Shown here in pieces: positions 1 to 12,892 of a stretch of DNA of 12,892 nt. The stretch lies in NCBI GenBank assembly GCA_009701085.1, contig WLKV01000005.1:1-12892 (forward strand), read 5' to 3'. Source of the stretch: Actinomycetota bacterium. Its GTDB lineage: Bacteria > Actinomycetota > Actinomycetes > Nanopelagicales > Nanopelagicaceae. Numbering within the stretch: position 1 is the first letter of the stretch; each line of letters opens with the position of its first letter. A model generated the notes under the pieces. It was not told the origin of the DNA and ran no database searches. It was given only the letters and a program-made list of their open reading frames with translations. A program made the translations under genes and the position numbers.

Positions 1-695
1 TCTATCAAGCGATGGAGTTCTTGCCATGGGGCAATAAGCAGGCGCTCGGTGAAATCGAAGTTCCACCAATTAACGTTGCAGGTAAGCACGTCATCATCTT
101 GGGTGGCGGCGATACCGGAGCAGATTGTCTTGGAACATCCGTTCGCCAAGGCGCAGCAAGTGTTACTCAACTTGAGATCATGCCTCGTCCAACTGAAGAG
201 CGTCCATCATCACAACCATGGCCTACATATCCGATGATCTATCGCGTATCTAGCGCACATGAAGAACTTGATAACCGAATCTTCTCTGTCAGCACCCAAG
301 AGTTTGTGGGCGACGGAAATGGAAATCTCAAGGCTCTCAAGATCGTTGAGACCAAGTTCGAAAATGGAAAGTTCGAACCAGTTCCAGGAACTGAGAAAGA
401 ACTTCCAGCGGACTTCGTATTCCTCGCGATGGGCTTTACTGGTCCTGAAAAATCTGCACTGATTGATCAGCTTGAGGTAGAGCTCGATGAACGTGGAAAT
501 ATCAAACGTGATGAAAACTTCCAGAGCAGTGAAGAAGGAATCTTCGTTGCAGGTGATGCCGGTCGTGGTCAATCTCTCATTGTCTGGGCAATTGCTGAAG
601 GTCGATCAGCAGCCGCTGCAGTGGACCGATATCTTGCGGGGGAGACTCAACTTCCTGCACCTATCGAGCCAACAACTCGCCAACTCATGGTCTAA
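1..695 (+). CDS. gltD: Glutamate synthase (NADPH) small subunit, C-terminal part (5' end outside window)
   Basis: GltD passes electrons from NADPH through FAD and iron-sulfur clusters to the large subunit GltB, which makes two glutamates from glutamine and 2-oxoglutarate in the cytoplasm. Only about the last 230 residues are here; the frame is open to the left edge, so the ATG at 12 is an internal Met and not the start. Visible are the second Rossmann nucleotide-binding motif ILGGGDTGADC, the following RQGAASVTQLEIMPRP typical of GltD, and the C-terminal FAD-binding stretch FVAGDAGRGQSLIVWAIAEG. The family is usually about 480 residues, so roughly half is missing only because of the window edge. 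The stop is TAA at 693-695; pyk follows after 37 bp. GltB would be expected just upstream. Glutamate synthase is the natural nitrogen-assimilation partner of the amino acid importer further right. Confidence 0.95.
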   Translation, partial: YQAMEFLPWGNKQALGEIEVPPINVAGKHVIILGGGDTGADCLGTSVRQGAASVTQLEIMPRPTEERPSSQPWPTYPMIYRVSSAHEELDNRIFSVSTQEFVGDGNGNLKALKIVETKFENGKFEPVPGTEKELPADFVFLAMGFTGPEKSALIDQLEVELDERGNIKRDENFQSSEEGIFVAGDAGRGQSLIVWAIAEGRSAAAAVDRYLAGETQLPAPIEPTTRQLMV

Positions 696-732
696 CTTCT
701 AAGTAACTACTAAGCACAGATAAGGTACCGAC

Positions 733-2172
733 ATGCGCCGCGCCAAAATTGTTTGCACGATGGGTCCAGCAGTTGAATCTCCAGAGAAGGTAAAGGAGCT
801 CATCGCCGCTGGCATGAATATGGCGCGCCTCAACCTTTCCCACGGTGGTTATGAGGAGCACCAAGCTCGCCTCGACCGCGTGCGTTCTGCAGCGAAGGAA
901 GCTGGCAAGGCTGTTGCAATTCTTGTCGACCTACAAGGACCAAAGATTCGTCTCGGACGTTTTGCTGATGGTCCTCATGATCTTGCTCGTGGAGATATCT
1001 TCACAATTACAACTGATGAGATTTCAGGAACAAAAGAAAGAGTTGGAACCACATACAAAGGTCTTCCAGGAGATTGCAAAGCTGGCGATCGTATTCTGAT
1101 TGATGACGGAAAAGTTACTGTCGAAGTTATTGAAGTAAAGGGCAATGATGTTGTCACTAAGTGCATTCAGCCAGGAGCTGTCAGCAATAACAAGGGAATC
1201 AACCTCCCAGGTGTTGCTGTCTCTGTTCCTGCAATGTCTGAAAAAGATGAAGCAGATCTTCGTTGGGGACTTCGCGCAGGAGCAGATTTCATCGCACTCT
1301 CATTCGTACGTAACGCTGCAGATGTGAAAGATGTCCATGCAATCATGGATGAAGTTGGTATTCGCGTTCCGGTTATCGCAAAGATTGAAAAGCCACAGGC
1401 CGTTGATAACTTGGTCGAAATCGTTGCCGCCTTCGATGGCATCATGGTTGCTCGCGGCGACCTCGGAGTCGAACTTCCTATTGAAGATGTTCCAATGGTT
1501 CAGAAGCGCTGTGTCGAACTTGCTCGCGATGCTGCAAAGCCAGTGATCGTGGCAACGCAGATGCTTGATTCCATGATTACAAACTCTTCGCCAACTCGCG
1601 CAGAAGCAACAGACTGTGCAAACGCTGTTCTTGATGGCGCGGATGCGCTCATGCTTTCAGGCGAAACTTCAGTCGGCGAATTCGCAATTCAAGCAGTGGA
1701 AACAATGGCCCGCATCATCGAGCGCACAGAAGAACTCGGTCTCGATCGCATCCGACCATTGTCAAATACACCGCGTACAAAGGGTGGCGCAATCACAAAG
1801 GCAGCTGCTGAAGTAGGTCTCATTGTTGGTGCAAAGTTCCTCGTCACATTTACTCAATCTGGTGACTCCGCACGCCGTATCTCACGCCTGCGTTCACCAA
1901 TTCCAATCCTTGCAATCACTCCTGAAGAAGGCACGTATAACCGCCTTGCACTTTCGTGGGGCGTTGAGCCATTGGTAACTCCCATGGTGAAGCACACCGA
2001 TGAGATGGTGCTTCAGGCTGACAAGATGCTTCTCGAAGGTAAGCGCGCTGCAATCGGCGAATCAGTCATGATCGTTGCCGGTTCACCTCCAGGAATTCCT
2101 GGATCTACAAACGCTATGCGTGTACACACAGTAGGCGATGCCGTTAATGGCGTGGTCGCTGCATATCGTTAA
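733..2172 (+). CDS. pyk: Pyruvate kinase
   Basis: Catalyses phosphoenolpyruvate plus ADP to pyruvate plus ATP, the last step of glycolysis, in the cytoplasm, normally as a tetramer. The 479-residue length is typical. Family landmarks occur in order: KIVCTMGPA at the N-terminus, MARLNLSHG, DLQGPKIR, the active-site signature IAKIEKPQAVDN with catalytic Lys217 and metal-binding Glu219, MVARGDLGVELP, VIVATQMLDSMI and the PTRAEATDCANAVLDGADA stretch, followed by the C-terminal allosteric-type domain. The ATG at 733 fits the family N-terminus. Upstream, TAAGGT (721-726) lies six bases before the ATG: it contains an AAGG that could act as a weak ribosome-binding site, but it also fits a TANNNT -10 box placed for a leaderless message. 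The sequence does not decide. No clear terminator follows the gene. Confidence 0.97.
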   Translation: MRRAKIVCTMGPAVESPEKVKELIAAGMNMARLNLSHGGYEEHQARLDRVRSAAKEAGKAVAILVDLQGPKIRLGRFADGPHDLARGDIFTITTDEISGTKERVGTTYKGLPGDCKAGDRILIDDGKVTVEVIEVKGNDVVTKCIQPGAVSNNKGINLPGVAVSVPAMSEKDEADLRWGLRAGADFIALSFVRNAADVKDVHAIMDEVGIRVPVIAKIEKPQAVDNLVEIVAAFDGIMVARGDLGVELPIEDVPMVQKRCVELARDAAKPVIVATQMLDSMITNSSPTRAEATDCANAVLDGADALMLSGETSVGEFAIQAVETMARIIERTEELGLDRIRPLSNTPRTKGGAITKAAAEVGLIVGAKFLVTFTQSGDSARRISRLRSPIPILAITPEEGTYNRLALSWGVEPLVTPMVKHTDEMVLQADKMLLEGKRAAIGESVMIVAGSPPGIPGSTNAMRVHTVGDAVNGVVAAYR

Positions 2173-2181
2173 TCCACACCA

Positions 2182-2218
2182 TTTCTCGTTTCTCGTATCT
2201 GGTCTCTTCTAATACGAT
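2182..2218 (+). promoter_or_regulatory. Probable promoter of the tRNA/pdtaR unit
   Basis: The -10 candidate is TACGAT (2213-2218, TANNNT), which would place the start near 2225, four bases before the tRNA. TAATAC (2210-2215) is a second choice and would start at about 2222. The -35 region is weak: a tandem TTTCTCG repeat (2182-2195) lies where it should be. This is inference from spacing only. Confidence 0.4.
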
Positions 2219-2221
2219 AGG

Positions 2222-2241
2222 GGAGTACGCCTCGGTACTCC
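2222..2241 (+). repeat. Perfect 7-bp inverted repeat with 6-base loop at the tRNA 5' end
   Basis: GGAGTAC (2222-2228), loop GCCTCG, GTACTCC (2235-2241). The loop consists of the first six bases of the tRNA acceptor strand, and the right arm covers positions 7 to 13 of the tRNA, so the hairpin and the cloverleaf exclude each other. It could be a DNA operator overlapping the start of transcription, or an RNA switch if transcription begins at or before 2222. Confidence 0.6.
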
Positions 2242-2301
2242 AACGGTAGAGAGGGCAGTCTCAAACACTGCATAGTGTCGGTTCGAATCCGACTCGAGGC
2301 A
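2229..2301 (+). tRNA. tRNA with CAA anticodon (Leu by anticodon), short variable loop
   Basis: A full cloverleaf can be drawn. The acceptor is GCCTCGG (2229-2235) with TCGAGGC (2294-2300), six Watson-Crick pairs and one G-U, and discriminator A at 2301. The D-stem is three pairs, CTC (2238-2240) with GAG (2251-2253), and the loop contains GG and TAGA as in Leu tRNAs. The anticodon stem is GCAGT (2255-2259) with ACTGC (2267-2271) around loop CTCAAAC, giving anticodon CAA at 2262-2264. The T-arm is GTCGG, TTCGAAT, CCGAC (2277-2293). CCA is not encoded. CAA should read leucine codon TTG, but bacterial tRNA-Leu normally carries a long variable arm; here it is only ATAGT (2272-2276). Charging identity is therefore uncertain. 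The pdtaR ATG begins two bases after the tRNA's last base. Confidence 0.85.
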
Positions 2302-2302
2302 C

Positions 2303-2902
2303 ATGAGCAACGAAGCCAAGCCAAGCGCGCCAGTGCGCATCCTTGTTGCAGAGGATGAAGCTCTCATTCGCATGGACCTCGTTGAAATGTTGCAAGAAGC
2401 CGGTTACGAAGTTGTTGCTCAAGCAACCAATGGCGAAGAAGCAATTGCACTCGCAACAGAACACCAACCAGATTTAGCAATCCTCGATGTGAAGATGCCG
2501 GTCCTCGATGGAATTTCAGCGGCCGAGAAAATTATTTCGATTGCTCCAGTCTTGATGTTGACAGCGTTTAGTCAGAAAGAACTCGTTGATCGCGCACGTG
2601 ATGCCGGCGTCATGGCATATGTTGTGAAGCCATTTACTATCGGCGACCTTGTTCCAGCAATTGAAATTGCTATTAGTCGCCATACTCAGATGAAATCACT
2701 TGCCGAAGAAGTTGCCGATCTTCACGAACGACTTGAAACCCGCAAAATTATTGATCGCGCCAAGGGCATTTTGATGAAGGCCCTGAACCTCTCTGAGCCC
2801 GAAGCTTTTTCTTGGATTCAGCGAGCTGCCATGGACCGTCGATTGACGATGAAAGAGGTCGCTCACGCGGTAATTTCCCCCGAGGCAGCCCTCGACAAAT
2901 AG
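2303..2902 (+). CDS. pdtaR: ANTAR-domain response regulator (PdtaR/Rv1626-like)
   Basis: A two-component response regulator that binds RNA and acts by antitermination. The N-terminal receiver domain (about residues 11-128) has the acidic pair Glu17-Asp18, phosphoacceptor Asp62 in LAILDVKMP, Thr87 and Lys109 in VVKPF. A short helical linker leads to an ANTAR domain (about 138-192) with the signature RAKGILMKALNLSEPEAFSW and a final TMKEVAHAVI. The 199-residue length is near that of mycobacterial PdtaR. The partner kinase PdtaS is not in the window. The ATG at 2303 starts one base after the tRNA and has no room for a ribosome-binding site outside the tRNA; the only other early start, GTG at 2333, would begin right at the first receiver strand. 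If tRNA and gene are co-transcribed, 3' processing of the tRNA would leave an almost leaderless message. The gene lies just upstream of the amino acid transporter, but a regulatory link is only a guess. Confidence 0.93.
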   Translation: MSNEAKPSAPVRILVAEDEALIRMDLVEMLQEAGYEVVAQATNGEEAIALATEHQPDLAILDVKMPVLDGISAAEKIISIAPVLMLTAFSQKELVDRARDAGVMAYVVKPFTIGDLVPAIEIAISRHTQMKSLAEEVADLHERLETRKIIDRAKGILMKALNLSEPEAFSWIQRAAMDRRLTMKEVAHAVISPEAALDK

Positions 2903-2934
2903 GCCCTTATCTATCGCGCGAAAGCCTTCATTTC

Positions 2935-2950
2935 GTAACCAAAAAGTAAC
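2935..2950. promoter_or_regulatory. GlnR-box-like direct repeat GTAAC-N6-GTAAC
   Basis: GTAAC at 2935-2939 and 2946-2950 are separated by six bases, so the half-sites are 11 bp (one helical turn) apart on one face of the DNA. This resembles the published actinobacterial GlnR operator half-sites (gTnAC-n6-GaAAC). It is centred about 74 bp upstream of the predicted livK transcription start. Binding by GlnR is inferred; no regulator gene is in the window. Confidence 0.4.
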
Positions 2951-2980
2951 CTCCCAGGCGGGATTTCGCCCTCTTCCACC

Positions 2981-3010
2981 TTGTCTCAAGCGTGGGTTGA
3001 GCATTACGCT
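2981..3010 (+). promoter_or_regulatory. Predicted livK promoter
   Basis: -35 TTGTCT (2981-2986), 18-base spacer, -10 TACGCT (3005-3010), giving a start near 3017 and an untranslated leader of about 45 nt. It is the best match in the 159-bp gap between pdtaR and livK. The rest of this gap holds two small weak hairpins (2919-2935 and 2957-2970), the GTAAC pair and the leader elements listed separately. Confidence 0.5.
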
Positions 3011-3015
3011 TCACA

Positions 3016-3055
3016 CCTCCCTGTCCCGGGACACAAGCAAGAAAAAACAGGAAGG
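3016..3055 (+). promoter_or_regulatory. livK leader: possible Shine-Dalgarno-masking helix
   Basis: The strong ribosome-binding site AGGAAGG (3049-3055) lies six bases before the livK ATG. CCTCCCTGT (3016-3024) can pair with ACAGGAAGG (3047-3055) at eight of nine positions, with one C-A mismatch, closing a 22-base loop. This would hide the ribosome-binding site. Pairing potential is seen directly; a control role is inferred. Confidence 0.35.
3022..3033. promoter_or_regulatory. 12-bp perfect palindrome, candidate operator
   Basis: TGTCCCGGGACA reads the same on both strands and has no spacer, so it suits a DNA-bound dimer better than an RNA hairpin. It sits about 6 to 17 bases after the predicted livK transcription start, where a repressor would block RNA polymerase. 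Its left end overlaps the anti-Shine-Dalgarno segment. Confidence 0.35.
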
Positions 3056-3061
3056 CATTAC

Positions 3062-4216
3062 ATGAATAAGAAGATCGTAAGCGGTCTTGCTATTGCTGCA
3101 GCTGCAACTCTCGCCCTTGGCGTAGTTGCAACATCACCAGCATCAGCAGCTGCTAAGACATCAGTTTCACTTGCATTCGAAGGACCACTTACAGGTCCAG
3201 ATGCACAGCTCGGCCAGGATCAGATTCCAGGCGCGATCTATGCAATCGCTCTTTACAATGCAAAGAACCCAAAGGTAAAGGTCAACCTTGTTAAGGCTGA
3301 CTCACAGTGCGATGGCACAGTTGCTGCAAACGTAGCTCCTGGTGTTGCTGCTAACAAGGCAGTAATCGGTGTTATCGGAACATCATGTTCAGGTGAAGCA
3401 CGCGCTTCATTCCCTGCATTCAAGGCAGCTGGACTCACAATGATCGCTCCATCAGCATCAGCTGTTTCACTTACAAATCCAAAGGCTCCAGACCGTGGCT
3501 TCCCAGTATTCCACCGCGTCGTTGCACACGATGGATTCCAGGCACCAGCTCTAGCTCGCTACGCAGCTAAGGGTGTTGCTTCACCTAAGTTCTACATCAT
3601 CGATGACATGACTACATACGGTGGCCCACTTGCTAAGGGTTCAATCCCACAGGCAAAGAAGCTCGGCGATGTTGTTGGTACAGACTCAGTTCCAAAGGGA
3701 ACAGCTGACTACACATCAGTAGCATCAAAGGTTAAGGCTTCAGGCGCTAACGTTGTTATCTACGGTGGTTACACCACAGATGCAGCGAAGCTCTTCAAGG
3801 CTCTTCGCGATGGTGGATACAAGGGAATCTTGGCTTCAGGCGATGGAACAAACACATCTGACTTCCCAGCACTTGCTGGATCAGCAGCAGAAGGTGTTCG
3901 TCTCACAGCAGCTGACGTCCCATTCGATTCAATCCTTTCAAAGGCACAGCTTGCTGAGTTCACAAAGATCACTGGAATCAAGGTTCCTGGTCTCTACTCA
4001 ACAACTGCATACAACGCAACTAACATCTTCCTAGACTGCATTACAAAGGGCGCTACAACTCGTTCAGCGATCCAGCTCTGCGTAACTAACGGTTCATGGA
4101 CAGGTGCAGGCGGAGAAACCATCAAGTTCGACCGTTACGGCGACATCATTGGTGGAGCTCCAGTCGGTGGTTACCTTGTAAAGAACGGCGTCATCATCTA
4201 CGACTCAGTTGCTTAA
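3062..4216 (+). CDS. livK: Branched-chain amino acid ABC transporter, substrate-binding protein
   Basis: An extracytoplasmic type I periplasmic-binding-fold protein that captures leucine, isoleucine, valine or related amino acids and delivers them to LivHM. The ATG at 3062 was chosen over an in-frame ATG at 2981 because it follows AGGAAGG at six bases and starts a clean signal peptide (basic NKK, hydrophobic core, SPASAAA cleavage region at about residue 29-31). That signal has no cysteine, so there is no lipobox, although Gram-positive binding proteins are usually lipoproteins. The mature protein has two close cysteine pairs' partners (CDG with GTSCSG; LDCIT with QLCVTN) that suggest two disulfides as in LivK. 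GTSCSGEAR and APSASAVS mark the ligand-binding hinge region, and the end, FDRYGDIIGG followed by YLVKNGVIIYDSV, is typical. Codon use is strongly biased to NCA and NCT (for example TCA serine, ACA threonine), suggesting very high expression. 384 residues. Confidence 0.93.
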   Translation: MNKKIVSGLAIAAAATLALGVVATSPASAAAKTSVSLAFEGPLTGPDAQLGQDQIPGAIYAIALYNAKNPKVKVNLVKADSQCDGTVAANVAPGVAANKAVIGVIGTSCSGEARASFPAFKAAGLTMIAPSASAVSLTNPKAPDRGFPVFHRVVAHDGFQAPALARYAAKGVASPKFYIIDDMTTYGGPLAKGSIPQAKKLGDVVGTDSVPKGTADYTSVASKVKASGANVVIYGGYTTDAAKLFKALRDGGYKGILASGDGTNTSDFPALAGSAAEGVRLTAADVPFDSILSKAQLAEFTKITGIKVPGLYSTTAYNATNIFLDCITKGATTRSAIQLCVTNGSWTGAGGETIKFDRYGDIIGGAPVGGYLVKNGVIIYDSVA

Positions 4217-4246
4217 TTAGCTCTGACTCTAGAAGTACCGCTGTAA

Positions 4247-4264
4247 ATATGTAGCAATACATAT
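4247..4264 (+). terminator. AT-rich hairpin with GCAA loop after livK
   Basis: ATATGTA (4247-4253), GNRA-type loop GCAA, TACATAT (4258-4264), then GTTTTA. The seven-pair stem is AU-rich and weak, but the tetraloop and following U-run suit a leaky terminator or 3'-end element. It stands 30 bases after the livK stop, just before a much stronger hairpin. Confidence 0.4.
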
Positions 4265-4271
4265 GTTTTAA

Positions 4272-4309
4272 AGGTGTGGCCACTTTCCTTCGGGGAAGTG
4301 GCCACACTT
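4272..4309 (+). terminator. Strong UUCG hairpin between livK and livH
   Basis: The 5' arm GTGTGGCCACTTTCC (4274-4288) and 3' arm GGGAAGTGGCCACAC (4293-4307) pair over 15 positions around a C(TTCG)G loop; two further pairs extend it to 4272-4309. No clean U-run follows (TTCATAACACTC), so it may be a partial terminator or a barrier to 3' exonucleases that keeps livK mRNA more abundant than the downstream genes. Confidence 0.75.
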
Positions 4310-4342
4310 CATAACACTCTTCACCTCAACAGATCGGTTGAT

Positions 4343-5296
4343 ATGAATTTTTCAGTAATCACGAGCCAGTTCTGGAGCCTTGTACTACAAGGGCTCGCTC
4401 TGGGTCTTATCTACGCCCTTGTATCCCTGGGATACACCATGGTGTACGGAGTCCTTCGACTCATTAACTTTGCAAACTCCGAAGTATTTATGATCGGAAC
4501 ATTTGCCACGCTCTATCTCGAAGTACATGTACTTGGGTATGCAACTAACTCGCCATCGCTTCACGGCGCAAAGTTGGTCTGGACCTTGGTATTGGTATTT
4601 ATCGGTTCGATGATTGCCTGCGCGCTACTAGCGATGCTTGTCGAAATTGTCGCGTATCGCAGACTTCGTGCTCGCGGTGCCAACCGCCTCGCGTCACTCA
4701 TTTCGGCGATCGGTGTCTCAATCGCACTCCTCGAAGGTATGCGCATCATCACCATCTCTCGTCCGATGACTACACCACGTCTTCTCGACAAGTGGAGCTT
4801 CGGTGAATTCCATGGAGCCAACTTCCGTATCGACACCTTGATGGCGATTGTTGTCCCGATCATTATCTTCGTAGTTCTCGATCGCTTCGTCACCAAGTCA
4901 CGCCTTGGAAAATCAATCCGTGCAGTGTCGATGTCTGAAGAGAACTCAAAGTTGATGGGTATCAATATCAACCGAGTTATCACCTTAACTTTCTGCATTG
5001 GCGGTCTCACCACTGGTGCAGCAGCATTTATCTACACAACCGTCTATGAGAACACCGTCTTTAACGTGGGCTTCAATATGGGTATCGCAGCATTTACTGC
5101 AGCGGTTCTCGGAGGTATCGGAAACCTACGTGGCGCTTTCTACGGCGGAATTGCACTGGGCATGCTCGAGCAATTTGCATCAGCGATGCTCGGATCTCAG
5201 TGGAAGGCAGTAACTGTCTTTACAGTGCTTGTTGTCGTACTCCTATTCAAACCAAACGGCCTCTTCGGTGAAGCCGTACAGCAGACGAGGACATGA
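4343..5296 (+). CDS. livH: Branched-chain amino acid ABC transporter permease LivH
   Basis: One of two membrane subunits that form the import channel for amino acids delivered by LivK. 317 residues with about eight hydrophobic segments. Family signatures seen are LGLIYALVSLGYTMVYGVLRLINFAN at the N-terminus (in parts), the cytoplasmic loop SEENSKLMGININRVI that contacts the ATPases, and AFTAAVLGGIGNLRGAFYGG near the end. The start was set at ATG 4343 (MNFSVITSQ); an open frame extends upstream to a GTG at 4274, but that extension is the strong hairpin and not protein. No good ribosome-binding site precedes 4343. The stop TGA at 5294-5296 overlaps the livM start as ATGA, indicating coupled translation. 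Confidence 0.94.
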   Translation: MNFSVITSQFWSLVLQGLALGLIYALVSLGYTMVYGVLRLINFANSEVFMIGTFATLYLEVHVLGYATNSPSLHGAKLVWTLVLVFIGSMIACALLAMLVEIVAYRRLRARGANRLASLISAIGVSIALLEGMRIITISRPMTTPRLLDKWSFGEFHGANFRIDTLMAIVVPIIIFVVLDRFVTKSRLGKSIRAVSMSEENSKLMGININRVITLTFCIGGLTTGAAAFIYTTVYENTVFNVGFNMGIAAFTAAVLGGIGNLRGAFYGGIALGMLEQFASAMLGSQWKAVTVFTVLVVVLLFKPNGLFGEAVQQTRT

Positions 5297-6339
5297 TGGC
5301 TAACTTAACTCGATTTAATCTCCGCGATAAGGGAGCAGAAATCTGGGCAGGCTGGTCACGACCAGTTCGCACAGTCTTCGTTCTCGCATTTATTGTTCTT
5401 ATCGGACTCATGCCATTCGCTGCTTCATGGGGCCCAACCAGCTTCTTGAATACTCCGATCACTTCTTTCCAGAACGTATTGGTCTACCCAGTGGGCATGT
5501 TCATCATGATGGCCCTTGGCCTCAATATCGTTGTTGGTAAGTCCGGTCTTCTAGACCTCGGTTACGTTGCATTCTTTGCAATTGGCGCTTACTCACAAGG
5601 AATTCTTTCAACGCTCTACGGTTGGAATACATGGGAAGTAATGCCTTTCGGAATCGGTTTTGCGATGCTCGCAGGTGTAATTCTCGGACTACCTGCACTT
5701 CGCCTTCGCGGTGACTATCTAGCAATCATCACTCTTGGTTTTGGTGAAATTGTTCGTATCGTTGCGATTAACCTCTCAGTGACAGGTGGACCTAACGGAA
5801 TTCCTGGAATTCCTAATCCTCCAAGCGTTTTTGGACTTCACTTCGATCTCATGCACCCAGAAACATTCTTCTGGCTCGTCTTTGCAATGATTCTCCTCGT
5901 TATCTGGATGGTACGTAGATTTACGATTCGCCGCCCAGGTCGCGCATGGGAAGCAATCCGCCAAGATGAAGATGTGGCAGCGCTCATGGGTGTTAACACT
6001 CTTGTTTACAAACTCTGGTCATTCGTGATTGGTGCTGCTGTAGGTGGCGCTGCAGGCGTTCTCTACGCATCCAAGGTCATGGTGATTTCACCAGATATGT
6101 TTAAGTTCGATGTCTCAATCTTGATTCTCGCCTGTGTTGTCTTCGGTGGAATTGGAAATATCTGGGGCGTAGTACTTGGTGCGGGAATTCTCGCTTATAT
6201 GCCTGAGCGCATCCGCTTTATCTCAGATGCTCGCCAACTCGTCTTCGGACTTGTTCTGATCATCATGATGAATATGCGTCCTGACGGCCTCTTGCCTCGC
6301 AAGAAACGCGAAAAAATTACAGAGAAGGGTGCAAAGTAA
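5293..6339 (+). CDS. livM: Branched-chain amino acid ABC transporter permease LivM
   Basis: Second membrane subunit of the amino acid importer. 348 residues, mostly hydrophobic. Recognised by GLNIVVGKSGLLDLGYVAF, LRLRGDYLAIITLGFGEIVR, the TGGPNGIPGIPNP loop, the ATPase-contact loop GRAWEAIRQDEDVAALMGVN and FGLVLIIMMNMRPDGLLP before a basic tail (RKKREKITEKGAK). The start is ATG 5293 or the adjacent ATG 5296; GAGGA at 5286-5290 serves either. The gene overlaps livH by four bases and its stop TAA shares an A with the livG ATG (TAATG at 6337-6341), so H, M and G are translated as a coupled block. Confidence 0.94.
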   Translation: MMANLTRFNLRDKGAEIWAGWSRPVRTVFVLAFIVLIGLMPFAASWGPTSFLNTPITSFQNVLVYPVGMFIMMALGLNIVVGKSGLLDLGYVAFFAIGAYSQGILSTLYGWNTWEVMPFGIGFAMLAGVILGLPALRLRGDYLAIITLGFGEIVRIVAINLSVTGGPNGIPGIPNPPSVFGLHFDLMHPETFFWLVFAMILLVIWMVRRFTIRRPGRAWEAIRQDEDVAALMGVNTLVYKLWSFVIGAAVGGAAGVLYASKVMVISPDMFKFDVSILILACVVFGGIGNIWGVVLGAGILAYMPERIRFISDARQLVFGLVLIIMMNMRPDGLLPRKKREKITEKGAK

Positions 6340-7115
6340 TGTCTGAAAAACTTCTCGAACTCAAAAACGTCACCATCAAGTTTGGTGGAGTTACAGCTCT
6401 CAACGAAGTTAACTTCCATGTTAATCGCGGCGAGATCTGCGCACTCATCGGACCAAACGGCGCAGGAAAGACAACAGTCTTCAACGTTGTCACAGGTGTC
6501 TACCCGCTTACTTCAGGCGAGATCACCTTCAAGGGCGTCAACCTTGCAGGGTTAAAGCGCCACCAAGTAACGAAGTCGGGACTTGCGCGTACATTCCAGA
6601 ACGTTCGTCTCTTTGGAGATATGACCGCTCTAGAAAATGTTATTACTGCAACCGATGTTCACAAGAAGACAGGTCTTCTCCGTGCACTTATCGGAACTCC
6701 TCTCAACCGCAAGGAAGAGCGTGAATCCAAGGAGCGCGCACATGAGCTATTAGCACTTATGGGTATCGACCATCGTGCAGATCAGCTCGCAAAGAATCTT
6801 CCTTACGGAGATCAGCGTCGCCTTGAAATTGCTCGCGCACTCGGAACAGAGCCAGAGCTCTTGCTCCTTGATGAACCAGCAGCAGGCTTCAACCCCGCTG
6901 AAAAGGTAGAGCTAGCAAATCTCATCAAGAAGATTCGCGATAAGGGCTACACAGTTCTTCTTATCGAGCACGATATGTCGCTCATCATGGGAATCTCAGA
7001 TCGCGTCGCAGTTCTCGACTTCGGTCAGAAGATTGCAGATGATCTTCCAACAGTTGTCCAAAATGACCCTCGTGTGATCGAGGCTTACCTAGGAGTGCCA
7101 GCAGATGCGTCTTGA
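6339..7115 (+). CDS. livG: Branched-chain amino acid ABC transporter ATPase LivG
   Basis: Cytoplasmic ATPase that pairs with LivF to power import. 258 residues. Walker A is GPNGAGKTT (about residue 40), followed by the LivG-type LARTFQNVRLFGDMTALENV segment around the Q-loop, the variant signature LPYGDQRRLEIARAL that replaces LSGGQ in this subfamily, Walker B LLLLDEPAAGFNP and the switch histidine in LLIEHDM. The C-terminal PRVIEAYLG motif is normal. AGAAGGG upstream (6321-6329 region) acts as ribosome-binding site. The 3' end overlaps livF by 11 bases. All catalytic motifs are intact. Confidence 0.96.
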   Translation: MSEKLLELKNVTIKFGGVTALNEVNFHVNRGEICALIGPNGAGKTTVFNVVTGVYPLTSGEITFKGVNLAGLKRHQVTKSGLARTFQNVRLFGDMTALENVITATDVHKKTGLLRALIGTPLNRKEERESKERAHELLALMGIDHRADQLAKNLPYGDQRRLEIARALGTEPELLLLDEPAAGFNPAEKVELANLIKKIRDKGYTVLLIEHDMSLIMGISDRVAVLDFGQKIADDLPTVVQNDPRVIEAYLGVPADAS

Positions 7116-7824
7116 AATTAAAGATCTTCGCGTTCACTACGGCAAGATTGAAGCCATCAAGGGCGTATCAGTCGTTGTAAACCAAGGCGAAATTGTCACA
7201 CTCATCGGCGCTAACGGCGCAGGTAAGACAACTATTCTCAAGACCATTTCAGGTCTTCGTCCGGTATCAAGTGGTGAAATTACATTTGATGGCGAAAATA
7301 TCAACAAGATCCCAGCGCACGAACGCGTTGATCTCGGTATCTCACAAGTCCCTGAAGGCCGTGGAATCTTCCCTGGTATGACAGTTCTTGAAAACCTCGA
7401 GATGGGTAAGTTCAACCGCAAAGATCGTAAGCACGAGATGGATGAGGATCTAGATCGCGTCTACACCTTGTTCCCACGTTTGAAGGAGCGCACAGCGCAA
7501 GCTGGCGGAACTCTTTCAGGTGGAGAACAGCAGATGCTTGCCATGGGTCGCGCTTTGATGGCACGTCCAAAGGTCTTGTTGCTCGATGAACCTTCAATGG
7601 GTCTTGCTCCTCAGATGATTGCAAATATTTTCCGCATCATCACTGAGATCAATAAGCAGGGCGTAACGATTCTCTTGGTTGAGCAGAATGCACAGCAGGC
7701 GCTACAGCGCGCACATCGTGCCTATATTCTCGAAACCGGAAGCGTTACAAAGGAAGCAGCAGCTTCTGACCTTCTTAATGATCCAGCTGTACGCGAGGCT
7801 TACCTCGGAACAGGTGCTCACTAA
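7105..7824 (+). CDS. livF: Branched-chain amino acid ABC transporter ATPase LivF
   Basis: Second ATPase of the LivKHMGF importer, 239 residues, forming a heterodimer with LivG under the LivHM channel. Walker A GANGAGKTT (about residue 34), Q-loop region GISQVPEGRGIFPGMTVLEN, signature LSGGEQQMLAMGRAL, Walker B VLLLDEPSMGLAP, and LLVEQNAQQAL where LivF proteins commonly have Gln rather than the switch His. The ATG at 7105 has AGGAG at 7091-7095, nine bases upstream, inside the end of livG. This is the last gene of the operon. After the stop comes a GTAA-rich tract, then a large hairpin inside the opposing thioesterase gene that probably ends the transcript. Confidence 0.96.
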   Translation: MRLEIKDLRVHYGKIEAIKGVSVVVNQGEIVTLIGANGAGKTTILKTISGLRPVSSGEITFDGENINKIPAHERVDLGISQVPEGRGIFPGMTVLENLEMGKFNRKDRKHEMDEDLDRVYTLFPRLKERTAQAGGTLSGGEQQMLAMGRALMARPKVLLLDEPSMGLAPQMIANIFRIITEINKQGVTILLVEQNAQQALQRAHRAYILETGSVTKEAAASDLLNDPAVREAYLGTGAH

Positions 7825-7833
7825 GTAAGTAAG

Positions 7834-8244
7834 TTACTCCTTATTTAAAATGAGGCAGGTTATGCGAGCAGTACATGTTCGCTGACCTGCCTCGTTTGTT
7901 ATCACAATCTCATAGACGCAGAGTGTGCGACCTAGCGAGATAGGGGTTGCTACTGCGGTGACAAAGCCACTGGTTGCAGATTTATGGTGAGTGGCATTGA
8001 TATCGACGCCAACAATTTTGCGATCAGGACCGGCATGTAATTGAGTGCCGATAGAACCCAGAGACTCTGCAAGAACTACGTTGGCTCCACCGTGGAGAAG
8101 GCCGATAGGTTGAGTATTGCCTTCAACGGGCATGCGAGCCACTAAGCGTTGTGGCGAAACTTCAAGCATTTCGATACCCATCTTGATATCGAGAGCCCCT
8201 TGGCCACGCTCTTTGATAATTGCTAAGTAATCAGGTTCGGTCAT
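7834..8244 (-). CDS. Hotdog-fold acyl-CoA thioesterase, PaaI/MenI(YdiI)-like
   Basis: Hydrolyses an acyl- or aryl-CoA thioester in the cytoplasm; the substrate cannot be told from sequence. 136 residues, the normal size for this family. The signature GLLHGGANVVLAESLGS holds His51 and the probable catalytic Glu60; VGVDINATHHKSATSG and the end GQRTCTARITCLI closely follow the E. coli MenI/YdiI and EntH pattern. The closest named activities are 1,4-dihydroxy-2-naphthoyl-CoA hydrolase (menaquinone synthesis) and phenylacetyl-CoA-type thioesterases; no menaquinone or phenylacetate gene is near. The start ATG at 8244 (MTEPDYLAI) was chosen; the open frame continues back to 8361 but that part lies over polA. 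No ribosome-binding site is seen, and TAAACT eight bases upstream suggests a near-leaderless message. Its last 17 or so codons also form a terminator hairpin. Confidence 0.9.
   Translation of the reverse strand: MTEPDYLAIIKERGQGALDIKMGIEMLEVSPQRLVARMPVEGNTQPIGLLHGGANVVLAESLGSIGTQLHAGPDRKIVGVDINATHHKSATSGFVTAVATPISLGRTLCVYEIVITNEAGQRTCTARITCLILNKE
7848..7897. terminator. Bidirectional terminator shared by livF and the thioesterase gene
   Basis: The outer stem is GAGGCAGGT (7852-7860) with ACCTGCCTC (7885-7893), extended by AAAT with GTTT to 13 pairs. An inner stem is GCGAGC (7864-7869) with GTTCGC (7877-7882), one G-U pair, loop AGTACAT. Plus-strand RNA continues GTTTGTTATC; minus-strand RNA continues ATTTTAAATAAGG. 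It lies 24 bases after the livF stop and within the last codons of the minus-strand gene. Confidence 0.75.
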
Positions 8245-8252
8245 AGTAGATG

Positions 8253-8258
8253 AGTTTA
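8253..8258 (-). promoter_or_regulatory. -10 box of the thioesterase gene, near-leaderless
   Basis: TAAACT on the minus strand (TANNNT) ends eight bases before the ATG at 8244, so transcription would start at or one base before the start codon. No -35 is evident; its position would fall on the polA start codon. Confidence 0.4.
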
Positions 8259-8262
8259 TATC

Positions 8263-8268
8263 TATGAT
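8263..8268 (+). promoter_or_regulatory. -10 box of polA, leaderless
   Basis: TATGAT ends seven bases before the ATG at 8276, the standard spacing for a leaderless actinobacterial message whose first base is the A of ATG. No Shine-Dalgarno sequence precedes this start. A -35 would overlap the thioesterase start codon and is not recognisable. Confidence 0.45.
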
Positions 8269-8275
8269 GAGCGCC

Positions 8276-10885
8276 ATGGCTACGAAGAGATTGCTCCTTA
8301 TTGATGGCCACTCAATGGCGTATCGAGCATTCTTCGCACTTCCTGCCGAAAACTTCACCACTGCCCAGGGTCAACACACCAATGCAATTTATGGCTTTGC
8401 CACGATGTTGATCTCACTTCTCAAAGATGAGAAACCAACTCACGTTGCCGTGGCATTCGATGTTTCGCGCAAGACATTCCGCACCGAAATCTTTCCTGAA
8501 TATAAAGCCAATCGAGCAAAGACCCCCGATGAATTTCGTTCGCAGATGTCTTACCTTCACGAACTTGTGAAGGGATTTGGCATTAGCCAATTTGAAGTCG
8601 AAGGTTTTGAAGCTGACGACATCATTGCAACTATTACTAAGCAGGCAGAGAAAGAGGGAGCTGAGGTACTTATCTGTACTGGTGATCGCGATAGCTTCCA
8701 GTTAGTGACTCCTCAGACCACCGTTCTCTATCCCAAGCGCGGGGTCTCTGAGATGGCGCGCATGACTCCCGATGCTGTTCAAGAAAAGTATGGAATGTCG
8801 CCCGAGCAGTATCCAGACTTCGCTGCGCTGCGTGGAGATCCGAGCGATAACTTGCCTTCTATTCCTGGCGTCGGTGAAAAGACCGCGGCTAAGTGGGTTG
8901 TCGAATACGGATCACTGGTCGAGCTCCTTGCGCAAGCCGAAAAGGTCGGCGGAAAAGTTGGAGATTCTCTACGCGCCAACATTGAAAATGTGAAACGTAA
9001 CCGCGAACTCACACAGCTCATCCATGATGCGCCGATTGATTTCTCCATCGATGCGCTGGCCTGGAACGGCGTCACCGAATCAGATCTGACAGCTCTCTTT
9101 GAACAACTCGAATTTCGAACGCTGAAAGACCGCCTCAAAGTTATTTCATCGGGCGCAGATAGTGCTCCAGTAAAGAAGTCTGCAAAGAGTGCCGAACCTG
9201 AATTCTCACTCTTTGGTTCAGATATCGATTCTGCAGTCATTACGGCGGATGAAGTGAGCAAGAAAATCTCATCCCATACAGGCGCCATCTCAATCGCATA
9301 CGAACTTGTCGATGATCACCTTCATCGTTATGCAGTTGCCCTCGATAAGAAGACCGCTTTTATCATTCACTCATCCGAAATGGGGGAGTGGGCCACTAAC
9401 TCTGCAGTCGAAAAGATTGCTCATGATGCAAAAGCGATTGCTCGCGAGAATGGACTTTCGGGCGTAGCTTTTGATACTTCTCTAGCTGCGTACCTCGTCA
9501 ATCCCGGGGTTCGCTCTCAAGAGGTAAAAGATCTACTCGAACGCTGGGGCGATGGAAGTCAGATTGATGAATCCACTCCAGAACAGAGCCTGCTCACTAC
9601 AGCCTGCGCGCTCTTCGGACTCCGCGATTCACTCACCAAAGAGCTGAGCGATCGTGGCCTGACAAAGCTCTATCAAGAGCTCGAGCTTCCTATCGCCGAT
9701 TTATTGGCGTTGATGGAGAACCGCGGAATCGCAGTAGATAAGAAAGGCCTTGAAACTCTCGCCACATTCTTTGATGGTGAAGTCGCTCGCGAGACAAAGA
9801 TTGCCCACGATGCTGCTGGCCATGAATTTAATGTGGGTTCGCCAAAGCAGTTGCAGGTAGTTCTCTTCGAGGAGCTCGGTCTTCCCAAGACAAAGAAGAT
9901 TAAGACCGGTTTCACCACAGATGCCGATGCGCTGACCTGGCTATTCGAAAAAACTTCGCATCCACTTCTTGCTGCGCTCCTCCGAATCCGTGAAACAAAG
10001 AAACTTGCAACAACGATTGAAGGACTTCTTGTAGAAATTCAGAAAGATAAGCGAATTCATACCCACTTTGCTCAGACAGTTGCAGCAACGGGGCGCCTCT
10101 CATCTGTGGGACCAAACTTGCAAAATATCCCAGTGCGCACAGAAGAAGGACGCAAAATCCGTGGTTGCTTCATTGCAGGAAGCGGATATGACGCACTTTT
10201 AACTGCTGATTACAGCCAAATAGAGATGCGCATCATGGCTCACCTTTCAAACGATGCGCACCTTCTCAAAGCATTTGAATCTGGCGAAGATCTCCACGCA
10301 ACCGTTGCCGCTGAAGTTTTTGGAGTAAAGCCAACTGATGTCGATCCAGAGATGCGTCGCCAAATTAAGGCGATGTCTTATGGATTGGCATATGGCTTGA
10401 GCTCCTACGGTTTAGCAGCACAGCTGGATCTGACTCCACCGGCTGCACAAGATCTGATGGATCGATACTTCGAACGCTTCGGAGGAATTCGCGATTACCT
10501 CAAGACCGTTGTCGAAGATGCACGCAAAGTTGGATATACCGAAACCGTAATGGGACGTCGTCGCTATCTTCCAGATCTCATGCACGATAACCGTCAACGC
10601 CGTGAAGTAGCAGAGCGTATGGCTCTCAATGCACCAATCCAAGGGTCAGCAGCAGACATCATTAAGCAGGCGATGCTCAATGTTCAGGATGCGCTAGTAG
10701 AAGGTAAGTACACATCACGCCTCTTGCTACAGGTACACGATGAATTAATTCTTGAGGTTGTCACCAAAGAGATTGATGAGGTCTCTGAACTCGTGCGCGT
10801 TCAAATGGGTAAGGCATATCCACTTCGTGCGCCACTTGATGTTTCAGTGGGTATTGGTAAGAGTTGGAACGACGCTGCCCACTAA
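8276..10885 (+). CDS. polA: DNA polymerase I
   Basis: Fills gaps in repair and removes RNA primers during lagging-strand synthesis. 869 residues from ATG 8276 (MATKRLLLIDGHS); in-frame ATGs at 8264 and 8267 would add up to four residues but overlap the likely -10 box. The N-terminal 5'-3' exonuclease (about 1-290) is intact: LLIDGHSMAYRAF, FDVSRKTFR, EGFEADDIIAT, CTGDRDSFQL and the helix-hairpin-helix GDPSDNLPSIPGVGEKTA. The middle domain (about 300-470) lacks the DxE metal-binding residues of a proofreading exonuclease, reading SIAYELVDD there. The polymerase domain has motif A ADYSQIEMR (Asp645), O-helix RRQIKAMSYGLAYG, and motif C LLQVHDELILEV. Tyr702 sits where E. coli has Phe762, as in mycobacterial Pol I. 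The stop TAA overlaps the stop of the opposing MFS gene. Confidence 0.97.
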   Translation: MATKRLLLIDGHSMAYRAFFALPAENFTTAQGQHTNAIYGFATMLISLLKDEKPTHVAVAFDVSRKTFRTEIFPEYKANRAKTPDEFRSQMSYLHELVKGFGISQFEVEGFEADDIIATITKQAEKEGAEVLICTGDRDSFQLVTPQTTVLYPKRGVSEMARMTPDAVQEKYGMSPEQYPDFAALRGDPSDNLPSIPGVGEKTAAKWVVEYGSLVELLAQAEKVGGKVGDSLRANIENVKRNRELTQLIHDAPIDFSIDALAWNGVTESDLTALFEQLEFRTLKDRLKVISSGADSAPVKKSAKSAEPEFSLFGSDIDSAVITADEVSKKISSHTGAISIAYELVDDHLHRYAVALDKKTAFIIHSSEMGEWATNSAVEKIAHDAKAIARENGLSGVAFDTSLAAYLVNPGVRSQEVKDLLERWGDGSQIDESTPEQSLLTTACALFGLRDSLTKELSDRGLTKLYQELELPIADLLALMENRGIAVDKKGLETLATFFDGEVARETKIAHDAAGHEFNVGSPKQLQVVLFEELGLPKTKKIKTGFTTDADALTWLFEKTSHPLLAALLRIRETKKLATTIEGLLVEIQKDKRIHTHFAQTVAATGRLSSVGPNLQNIPVRTEEGRKIRGCFIAGSGYDALLTADYSQIEMRIMAHLSNDAHLLKAFESGEDLHATVAAEVFGVKPTDVDPEMRRQIKAMSYGLAYGLSSYGLAAQLDLTPPAAQDLMDRYFERFGGIRDYLKTVVEDARKVGYTETVMGRRRYLPDLMHDNRQRREVAERMALNAPIQGSAADIIKQAMLNVQDALVEGKYTSRLLLQVHDELILEVVTKEIDEVSELVRVQMGKAYPLRAPLDVSVGIGKSWNDAAH

Positions 10886-12108
10886 CTAGTTGTCGGTGAG
10901 TTATCTTTCATCGCTTCTAAATCTTCTTCTGCAGTCGGAATTCGGTCAGCTGCTGAGAGGCGAGATTTACCAATTGTCAGAATGACGTAACCAATACCAA
11001 TACAAGCAGTTGTAATGCAGAGAGCTATCGTTGGCGAGAGTTTCTCTGAAATTACTCCACCTGCAGCAGAACCGATAGACATCAAAGTTCCTTCAACTGT
11101 CCAGAGCCAACCCATCATCGCGGTAGGTGAACCCTTCGGGCGGATCGCTTCCATAACTTCCCAATAAAAGACCATGATTGCTCCACCGAGAAGACCTAAG
11201 AGCGCACCAGCAAGAATCATCGACCATCCCGGATGAGAGATTGCCATGGGAATAGATGCGAAGAACCAGATTCCATAAGTGCGACGCATTGCGCGAAGTG
11301 ATGATGTTCTCTTTGAAACGAGACCCGCAAGGAGTCCGCCGAGGATGTTGGCGAGGCCCATCGAGGTGAAGATCCAAGCGGTGAGGTATGGAACCTTTTC
11401 AATAGTTGTAAATGCCGGAACAGCGACATCGAAGACGCCCCATCCAAAACCGAGGAAGCATCCTTCAATCATCAAGAGTTGAAGTGGTTTATGGCGCCAG
11501 AGTGGTTGGTAATCAGCAGACTTCTTTTCAGGAACCCAACTGCGTGAAACTTTTGTGAGAGCAAGTGCTCCACCACCGAGAATCATCAAGCCGCCACAGA
11601 GATTGAGCGGAAGAGAAGGATGTGATGAAAGTGCAAGGGATGTTGCGATCACAGGCCCTACGACGCCAGCTGTGCTCATGATTGCTGTATCCATTGCATA
11701 GGCAGTGCGGAGGAAATCTTCAGGAACAACAATCTTCCAGAGTGGACGAACAGATAAGTTAATTGGGGGAGCGCTGAGTCCCATGGCAAATGCAAAGATC
11801 AACATCAAAGGTTTTGAGTGCATCGCATTGAGAGCAAATGCCATTGCCGCATATCCAGGAACCATGATGCGAAGTGGCCACGTCTGTCCATACTTATCCA
11901 TAATGGAGCCGCGAATACCTGCGGTGAAAGAACCGGCGGCAGCGTTGAGACCGATAGCAATACCTGCAAATGCGATAGAGCCAGTTGATTGTTCTGCCTT
12001 AAAGAAGATTGACAGCCCGACCATGCCATATGCAACGCGCGCCGGGAAGCAGGCGATAAGTAGAACCCAGACATTGGGAATTCGGAATAGTTCGACATAT
12101 CGCTTCAT
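10882..12108 (-). CDS. Major facilitator superfamily transporter, substrate unknown
   Basis: A 408-residue membrane protein with about twelve hydrophobic segments in two halves separated by a hydrophilic loop (about residues 193-205, WVPEKKSADYQ). The loop after the second segment, RGSIMDKYGQTWPLR, fits MFS motif A (GxxxDxxGxxxxR), and LVSKRTSSLRAMRR occupies the matching place in the second half. The central stretch RPLWKIVVPEDFLRTAYAMD and following TAGVVGPVIA resembles drug or metabolite efflux proteins of the DHA1/EntS type, but no substrate can be named. The C-terminal tail is cytoplasmic and acidic (TAEEDLEAMKDN). The start ATG 12108 (MKRYVELFR) has no ribosome-binding site; TAGACT nine bases upstream may be a -10 for a nearly leaderless message. 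Its stop TAG overlaps the polA stop, with no room for a terminator between them. Confidence 0.88.
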   Translation of the reverse strand: MKRYVELFRIPNVWVLLIACFPARVAYGMVGLSIFFKAEQSTGSIAFAGIAIGLNAAAGSFTAGIRGSIMDKYGQTWPLRIMVPGYAAMAFALNAMHSKPLMLIFAFAMGLSAPPINLSVRPLWKIVVPEDFLRTAYAMDTAIMSTAGVVGPVIATSLALSSHPSLPLNLCGGLMILGGGALALTKVSRSWVPEKKSADYQPLWRHKPLQLLMIEGCFLGFGWGVFDVAVPAFTTIEKVPYLTAWIFTSMGLANILGGLLAGLVSKRTSSLRAMRRTYGIWFFASIPMAISHPGWSMILAGALLGLLGGAIMVFYWEVMEAIRPKGSPTAMMGWLWTVEGTLMSIGSAAGGVISEKLSPTIALCITTACIGIGYVILTIGKSRLSAADRIPTAEEDLEAMKDNSPTTS

Positions 12109-12117
12109 TGCAGAGCT

Positions 12118-12123
12118 AGTCTA
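12118..12123 (-). promoter_or_regulatory. Possible -10 box of the MFS gene
   Basis: TAGACT on the minus strand (TANNNT), nine bases before the ATG, implies a leader of two or three bases. No -35 was recognised. Weak evidence. Confidence 0.25.
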
Positions 12124-12187
12124 TTGGAAGCGGCTGATTTCTATGCGGGGATTTGCCTGTAATTCACCCTCACCCGTACTCTTGGGC

Positions 12188-12208
12188 TTCCGAAAATCAT
12201 TTTCGGGA
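12188..12208. repeat. Inverted repeat upstream of rpsA
   Basis: CCGAAAA (12190-12196), loop TCA, TTTTCGG (12200-12206); one G-U and one A-U pair extend it to nine pairs, followed by GAAAATTT. It lies in the divergent MFS/rpsA gap, 48 bases before the rpsA start. It could be an operator, or a hairpin if the rpsA transcript starts upstream of it. Confidence 0.5.
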
Positions 12209-12221
12209 AAATTTCATAGTC

Positions 12222-12247
12222 CTATCCCTACTACTTTCTATCCCTAC
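12222..12247 (+). repeat. Direct repeat CTATCCCTAC x2 in front of rpsA
   Basis: CTATCCCTAC occurs at 12222-12231 and again at 12238-12247, 16 bp apart, ending at the GGAG ribosome-binding site. A possible -10, TACTTT (12232-12237), sits between the copies. The copies are pyrimidine-rich. Function unknown; it could be a regulator site or part of autogenous S1 control. Confidence 0.5.
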
Positions 12248-12255
12248 GGAGCATC

Positions 12256-12892
12256 TTGACTACACAAATTGCAGTAAATGACATTGGATCAGCAGAAGAT
12301 TTTCTAGCCGCAATCGAAGGCACAATCAGAAATTTCAGTGACGGAGACCTCGTCATTGGCACAGTCGTTCAAATTGATCGCGAAGAAGTACTCCTAGACG
12401 TCGGTTACAAGACTGAAGGCGTAATTCCGTCACGCGAACTCTCAATCCGCCACGATGCAGACCCAAATGACATCGTCAAAGTTGGAGATAAAGTCGAAGC
12501 TCTAGTTCTTCAGAAGGAAGATAAAGAAGGACGCCTCATCCTCTCTAAGAAGCGTGCTCAGTACGAGCGTGCATGGGGAGAGATCGAAGGCAAGAAGGAA
12601 CGCGACGAAGTTGTCGTTGGAACAGTTATTGAAGTTGTTAAGGGCGGACTCATCGTCGATATCGGATTGCGCGGCTTCTTGCCAGCTTCCCTCGTCGAAA
12701 TGCGCCGCGTTCGCGATCTCACTCCTTACATCGGTAAGCAGGTTGAGGCTCGCATCATCGAGCTCGACAAGAACCGCAACAACGTTGTGCTTTCACGTCG
12801 TGCATTCCTTGAGCAGACACAGTCACAGTCACGTACTGAATTCCTTAACCAGCTCCAAAAGGGTCAGGTTCGTTCAGGCGTTGTCTCATCAA
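12256..12892 (+). CDS. rpsA: 30S ribosomal protein S1, N-terminal part (3' end outside window)
   Basis: S1 binds mRNA on the small ribosomal subunit and helps initiation. About 212 residues are present. The frame begins at TTG 12256 (read as Met: MTTQIAVNDIGSAEDFL); no ATG or GTG occurs in frame before the conserved N-terminus, and GGAG at 12248-12251 precedes it by four bases. The first S1 repeat (about residues 29-100) has DGDLVIGTVVQIDREEVLLDVG and EGVIPSREL; then LVLQKEDKEGRLILSKKRA; the second repeat (about 115-185) has GTVIEVVKGGLIVDIGLRGF and VEMRRVRDL. A third repeat is just beginning (KGQVRSGVVSS) at the edge. The close match to actinobacterial S1 supports the assignment of the organism. 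This gene diverges from the MFS gene over a 147-bp gap. Confidence 0.95.
   Translation, partial: MTTQIAVNDIGSAEDFLAAIEGTIRNFSDGDLVIGTVVQIDREEVLLDVGYKTEGVIPSRELSIRHDADPNDIVKVGDKVEALVLQKEDKEGRLILSKKRAQYERAWGEIEGKKERDEVVVGTVIEVVKGGLIVDIGLRGFLPASLVEMRRVRDLTPYIGKQVEARIIELDKNRNNVVLSRRAFLEQTQSQSRTEFLNQLQKGQVRSGVVSS

Follow-up and report, generated by a model that had tools for sequence, protein, structure and literature searches.

A probable leucine tRNA with anticodon CAA and a five-base variable region in the Nanopelagicaceae and other Actinomycetes

The tRNA-Leu of bacteria is generally placed among the tRNAs with a long variable arm, as is stated or implied in the available text of two reviews (PMC9976931, PMC7609411) and in the accessible part of a third source, which counts it as type II (PMC6297222). 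The accessible text of PMC7609411 lists tRNA-Leu as class II, with at least 10 nt in the variable region, and in that text the words actinobacteria and Streptomyces are absent. In E. coli, leucine identity resides in A73, the A15-U48 pair, G18G19 and A20a, and variants that lack the long arm retain activity (PMC9976931, available text). The same source portrays the tRNA-Leu(UUR) of animal mitochondria as a leucine tRNA that has no long arm. Another tRNA that combines the anticodon CAA with the absence of a long arm scores, unlike the one reported here, as a tRNA-Met in which one anticodon base has changed, and shows hardly any expression (PMC8450103, in its accessible part), and a short-looped tRNA-Leu(TAG) is remarked on in a mycobacterial tRNA cluster (PMC6582537, in its accessible part). 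The tRNA-Leu-CAA gene of M. smegmatis contains attB-11, the site at which the phages Omega (cluster J) and Gaia integrate; Omega has a core of 44 bp in common with it and restores the host tRNA gene, and Gaia shares 8 bp, does not restore the gene and carries a tRNA-Leu-CAA of its own (PMC10865867). The available text of that study treats the gene as a phage integration site and leaves its structure uncommented. No discussion of the missing arm in actinobacterial tRNA-Leu was found in the open-licence literature searched, and it may well have been noticed earlier in subscription journals.

Here we report a tRNA gene of this kind from an Actinomycetota bacterium of the family Nanopelagicaceae (assembly GCA_009701085.1, contig WLKV01000005.1, positions 1 to 12,892 of the forward strand). 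This whole stretch of 12,892 nucleotides is referred to as the window, and its relevant features are the following.

733..2172, + strand: pyruvate kinase gene (pyk), the upstream synteny marker (Pfam PK, PK_C; tblastn neighbours)
2213..2218, + strand: candidate actinobacterial -10 element TACGAT, about 10 nt upstream of the tRNA (by eye only)
2229..2301, + strand: class I tRNA-Leu(CAA), 73 nt, without encoded CCA (ARAGORN; Rfam RF00005; covariation over 95 distinct copies)
2238..2253, + strand: Leu-type D arm with the 3-bp stem CUC/GAG and the loop CAACGGUAGA (parse)
2262..2264, + strand: anticodon CAA in the loop CUCAAAC (ARAGORN position 34; parse)
2272..2276, + strand: variable region AUAGU, 5 nt (44-48), with U48 facing A15 (parse; Rfam alignment)
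2303..2902, + strand: gene of a pdtaR-like response regulator with an ANTAR domain (Pfam Response_reg, ANTAR), which we take to be pdtaR

The sequence-only reading of the window had described a complete cloverleaf of 73 nt with anticodon CAA, discriminator A, a three-pair Leu-like D arm and a variable region of only five bases, and ARAGORN, Rfam and the parse bear out this description. The tRNA at 2229-2301 is intact: ARAGORN calls a tRNA-Leu(caa) at 2229-2302, and the Rfam tRNA model (RF00005) is matched over positions 1-71 of 71 with 54.2 bits (gathering score 29; E 1.4e-9). The parsed stems comprise 7 bp in the acceptor, 3 bp in the D arm (2238-2240 with 2251-2253), 5 bp in the anticodon arm and 5 bp in the T arm, and the discriminator base A73 lies at position 2301. 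With position numbers assigned by hand, the D loop CAACGGUAGA reads C13 A14 A15 C16 G18 G19 U20 A20a G20b A21. Canonical class II tRNA-Leu of bacteria shares with this tRNA the anticodon for a leucine codon, the 3-bp D stem and A73, A14, A15-U48, G18G19 and A20a, but has the long arm where the window copy has 5 nt, below the class II limit of 10 nt in the available text of PMC7609411. The full cloverleaf with paired stems and the location on a bacterial chromosome distinguish it from the mitochondrial tRNA-Leu(UUR), and the loss of the arm presumably occurred independently of the latter. A scan with the sigma-70 consensus found 0 promoter sites for the window tRNA; as evidence for the candidate -10 element, the sequence TAATACGATA precedes the tRNA also in L021, L022, L023 and L122.

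An alignment of 95 distinct CAA copies, with 20 pairs and hence 1900 pair cells, has standard pairs in 99.1% of the cells. Sixteen of the 20 pairs vary on both sides somewhere among these copies, and changes on both sides of a pair occur in all four helices. Pairing dropped to 34.5-52.0% of the cells in slid controls, with the partners moved by 1-3 columns, and four of five measures in a shuffle test were reached by none of 500 shuffles, while the fifth, the number of pair types, was reached by 72 of 500. Selection maintains the cloverleaf of this tRNA, and chance is excluded.

The window assembly (754,834 bases in 132 contigs, 56.5% complete) yielded 16 Rfam tRNA matches, among which the window tRNA is the only leucine tRNA. 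The identical tRNA, letter for letter, is present in Candidatus Planktophila versatilis (L122) and Candidatus Planktophila lacus (L224), which places the lineage in or near Planktophila. BLAST recovered the tRNA in 41 of 60 genomes, namely the window's own, 30 of 36 others of the same genus and 10 of 23 others of the class; the six genomes of the genus that gave no match are 62-82% complete. ARAGORN identified a short tRNA-Leu in all 10 class relatives outside the genus, nine with the anticodon CAA and one with UAA (G055). A search of 295 genomes sampled from the class found a pattern for class I tRNA-Leu(CAA/UAA) in 222, with at least one match among those listed (G324) looking doubtful. Comparison with related genomes, which the sequence-only reading had named as a check, thus shows that the gene is no oddity of one genome, and an artefact confined to a single assembly was rejected on the counts for the genus (30/36) and the class sample (222/295). 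The class I pattern is present in every one of the 33 genomes of the window's family (own included), and in 27 it occurs at no fewer than two places. The class II pattern matched as well in four of these 33, and in eight of the 37 genomes of the genus (own included), in each case at strings that by eye are not tRNA-like. In the class sample, 119 of 295 genomes match the class II UUR pattern, and in 10 of these the only matches look, by eye, like chance. Some genomes match neither pattern, so both patterns miss genes.

The two forms are distributed in a patchy manner. One genome combines class I UAA with class II CAA (G055), another shows the reverse (G047), G054 has class I CAA and class II UAA, and many members of one family (f4) have class I forms for both anticodons among the matches listed. 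A strict CAA pattern was found in 16 of 296 rows of a phylum sample (5 of 26 rows of the window's class and 11 of 270 rows of other classes) and is rare outside the class. A scan of named genomes gave at least 120 stretches, and the matches listed include Streptomyces, Mycobacterium, Nocardioides, Bifidobacterium, Micromonospora, Cellulomonas and Planktophila. According to ARAGORN, 119 of the 120 stretches listed contain a class I tRNA-Leu(CAA). Three of the 120 carry non-actinobacterial titles: an Acidobacteria MAG (L165), in which ARAGORN sees no tRNA, and a Treponema MAG (L197) and a Polyangiaceae MAG (L200), in which the tRNA lies near other tRNA genes.

The tRNA set was surveyed in a complete relative of the same genus (G014; one contig, 99% complete), which gave 41 Rfam tRNA matches and 41 distinct ARAGORN sequences. 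Its leucine tRNAs have the anticodons CAA and UAA, both in class I form, and GAG and UAG, both in class II form; no other leucine tRNA is among the 41 distinct sequences, and the class II CAA/UAA pattern has no match in the genome. The normal class II tRNA-Leu(CAA) that might have existed beside the short one, as the sequence-only reading had considered, was thus not found in this genome, and as far as found, UUA and UUG have only short-armed readers there. The A15-U48 pair is not exclusive to leucine, since it occurs in G014 also in tRNA-Ala(UGC), tRNA-Arg(ACG), tRNA-Asn and tRNA-Trp. A D loop ending in AGA is found only in tRNA-Leu(CAA) and tRNA-Leu(UAA) among the class I tRNAs of G014 with a 5-pair anticodon stem; by this comparison of D-loop endings the window tRNA does not have the body of another isotype, and a mis-read anticodon of such a tRNA was rejected. 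The survey also brought up tRNA-Gly with anticodon ACC at low Rfam scores, both in the window assembly (G000:C43:1056-1127, L016; 38.3 bits) and in G014 (L098:165-239; 35.2 bits), and a G014 sequence with an odd anticodon arm that ARAGORN calls tRNA-Ala(tgc) (L097:167-240) and that is probably mis-called or a tRNA relic.

The meaning of UUG was assessed with 11 genes of the window, which contain 43 UUG codons, 37 of which stand in columns where 10 or more homologues at 40-75% identity were available. Leucine is the commonest residue in 30 of these 37 columns, and isoleucine (2), valine (2), phenylalanine (2) and arginine (1) prevail in the others; the corresponding values are 8 of 11 for UUA and 86 of 109 for CUU. 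When only those homologue leucines that are encoded by CUN were counted, which guards against assuming the answer, the values were 28 of 36 for UUG, 8 of 11 for UUA and 84 of 108 for CUU. The anticodon CAA thus corresponds to a codon that is read as leucine in this lineage.

The window copy carries all elements that were examined from the E. coli set (A73, A14, A15-U48, G18G19 and A20a; PMC9976931, available text). U8, A14, A15, U48, A73 and G18G19, a D loop ending in NAGA and all three D-stem pairs are present in all 96 distinct CAA copies that were parsed. These copies had been picked as short forms, and all have a 5-nt variable region. The counts for A20a, G20b, A21 and U48 are partly circular because the fetch pattern required these bases for many rows, whereas A14, A15, U8, A73 and the D stem were not imposed by it. 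The set of 96 leaves out five unparsed class I rows (L047, L197, L200, L202, L220) and the phage rows. Each of 24 genomes searched has one leucyl-tRNA synthetase (LeuRS) locus above the family cut-off with an open frame, and a motif check of these frames was uninformative, with the motif found in two of the 24 loci. The LeuRS profile matches G014 (L265) in one piece and its congener G015 (L269) in two, 1-568 and 605-842; split matches occur in other genomes as well and may be a domain difference.

Phages provide a separate view of the short-armed form. Baka and Omega belong to the same genus, Omegavirus, and 44 bases of the Baka attP (L298:210-253) correspond to the 3' portion of a class I tRNA-Leu(CAA) whose 5-nt variable region is ACAGU, a sequence that is also found in class I genes of family f4 among the matches listed. 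Judged from this attP, the M. smegmatis gene at attB-11 is probably of class I, and probably the same gene as that of the window. Gaia itself carries a long-armed tRNA-Leu(CAA) of class II (L299:39120-39202). With an apparently class I gene in the host and a class II copy in the phage, a long-armed tRNA-Leu seems to replace a short-armed one, and the Gaia case seems to be a natural swap from class I to class II.

Short-armed tRNA-Leu genes also occur in phages themselves (L294, L295, L297). The copies of Bacillus phage P59, Pseudomonas phage ZC03 and Mycobacterium phage Bonray are of class I like that of the window, and those of P59 and ZC03 and the GAG copy of Bonray share A73, A15, U48 and the Leu-type D arm with it. 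They differ in their location among other phage tRNA genes and in their anticodons, which include UAA, UAG and GAG besides CAA, and the CAA copy of Bonray has a different D loop. Unparsed matches 59-61 bases long, some of them annotated as tRNA-Leu, were found in phages of Erwinia, Enterococcus, Salmonella, cyanobacteria and Myxococcus. Together with the same core in class I tRNA-Leu of Bacillus and Pseudomonas phages, they would fit a LeuRS that is generally tolerant in bacteria.

The gene very probably encodes a working elongator tRNA for leucine that decodes UUG, lacks the class II arm, has kept the leucine identity elements and is charged by a LeuRS of the bacterial type. This reading is based on structure, conservation, synteny, the lack of a class II UUR tRNA in G014, leucine at UUG positions, the identity elements and the single LeuRS locus, and we infer expression, CCA addition and leucylation of the window tRNA. 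LeuRS would recognize A73, the elbow of D loop and T loop and A15-U48, elements that are sufficient in E. coli with the arm dispensable, and loss of the variable arm would then be tolerated. The sequence-only reading had named three options, a leucine isoacceptor of unusual form, a tRNA that carries something other than leucine and a tRNA-like regulatory RNA; the first is favoured here and the other two are disfavoured. Charging with another amino acid, with UUG partly or fully recoded, is very unlikely. The class I architecture without a long arm and the seven of 37 UUG columns in which leucine does not dominate speak for it, but the share of columns dominated by leucine is similar for UUG and CUN, the leucine core elements are kept, and Gaia supplies a class II tRNA-Leu in place of such a tRNA; moreover, both UUR tRNAs of G014 are of class I, so that after recoding of such tRNAs no leucine tRNA would be left for UUA and UUG. 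That the gene is a tRNA pseudogene which remained once the variable arm had been lost is hardly conceivable: the missing arm agrees with this, as does the CCA that is not encoded, but a CCA end is present in only 8 of 41 G014 tRNA sequences as printed by ARAGORN, and among the aligned copies the stems are not decayed (99.1% of cells paired) and two-sided changes occur in every helix, with conservation over the class. The class I leucine isoacceptor is ordinary in the lineage, contrary to the textbook rule. The possibility, also raised by the sequence-only reading, that such tRNAs are a well-known form in the lineage is true insofar as the gene is an old actinobacterial one that software names tRNA-Leu, but the missing arm is undiscussed, and the use of the short-armed form by a large bacterial class unreported, in the open-licence literature searched. 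A large class of bacteria has chromosomal short-armed tRNA-Leu genes, and in G014 no others were found that read UUA and UUG, while the remaining leucine tRNAs of that cell have the arm. What the arm contributes to recognition by LeuRS can therefore be tested on natural swaps, and isotype tools that rely on the long arm can misjudge such genes.

The remaining alternative, a tRNA-like regulatory leader of pdtaR that is not a tRNA of translation, concerns the neighbourhood of the gene. In the window, the ATG of the pdtaR-like gene lies 1 nt after A73. Of 48 loci from the same taxonomic order, four were too short and two were duplicates; among the 42 evaluable ones, the pdtaR start codon lies 1 nt after A73 in 34, of which 33 are free of an early in-frame stop, and the gap is 10-50 nt in the remaining eight. 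No in-frame ATG, GTG or TTG is present inside the tRNA upstream of these pdtaR starts in the same-order loci. In other classes of the phylum (L099-L103, L109-L114), pdtaR lies close downstream on the same strand at 9 of 11 class I tRNA-Leu(CAA) loci, which suggests that the pairing of tRNA and pdtaR may predate the class, and a single old locus that was inherited, perhaps from before the class arose, explains the distribution most simply. Among the 119 class I CAA loci of the named-genome matches listed, pdtaR is within 1 kb of the tRNA at 102, downstream on the same strand at 29 and upstream on the opposite strand at 73; at the other 17 it is not in reach, the fetched stretch ending nearby for some of them. 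The 33 loci with the tight junction and the 9 loci outside the class favour a leader, but the opposite orientation at 73 of the 119 listed loci means that such a role is not the general reason for conservation of the tRNA, and no other UUG tRNA was found in G014; a leader that takes no part in translation is therefore extremely improbable. It is conceivable, though rather doubtful, that the leucine tRNA for UUG serves in this lineage additionally as a leader of pdtaR, with co-transcription, cleavage by RNase Z after A73 and a leaderless mRNA beginning C-AUG, so that maturation of the tRNA would set the synthesis of the ANTAR regulator; the leaderless pdtaR mRNA would arise from that cleavage. 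Two contigs titled Bifidobacterium breve MAG (L186) and Streptomycetaceae MAG (L187) carry a Planktophila-type tRNA beside pyk, and their titles look wrong.
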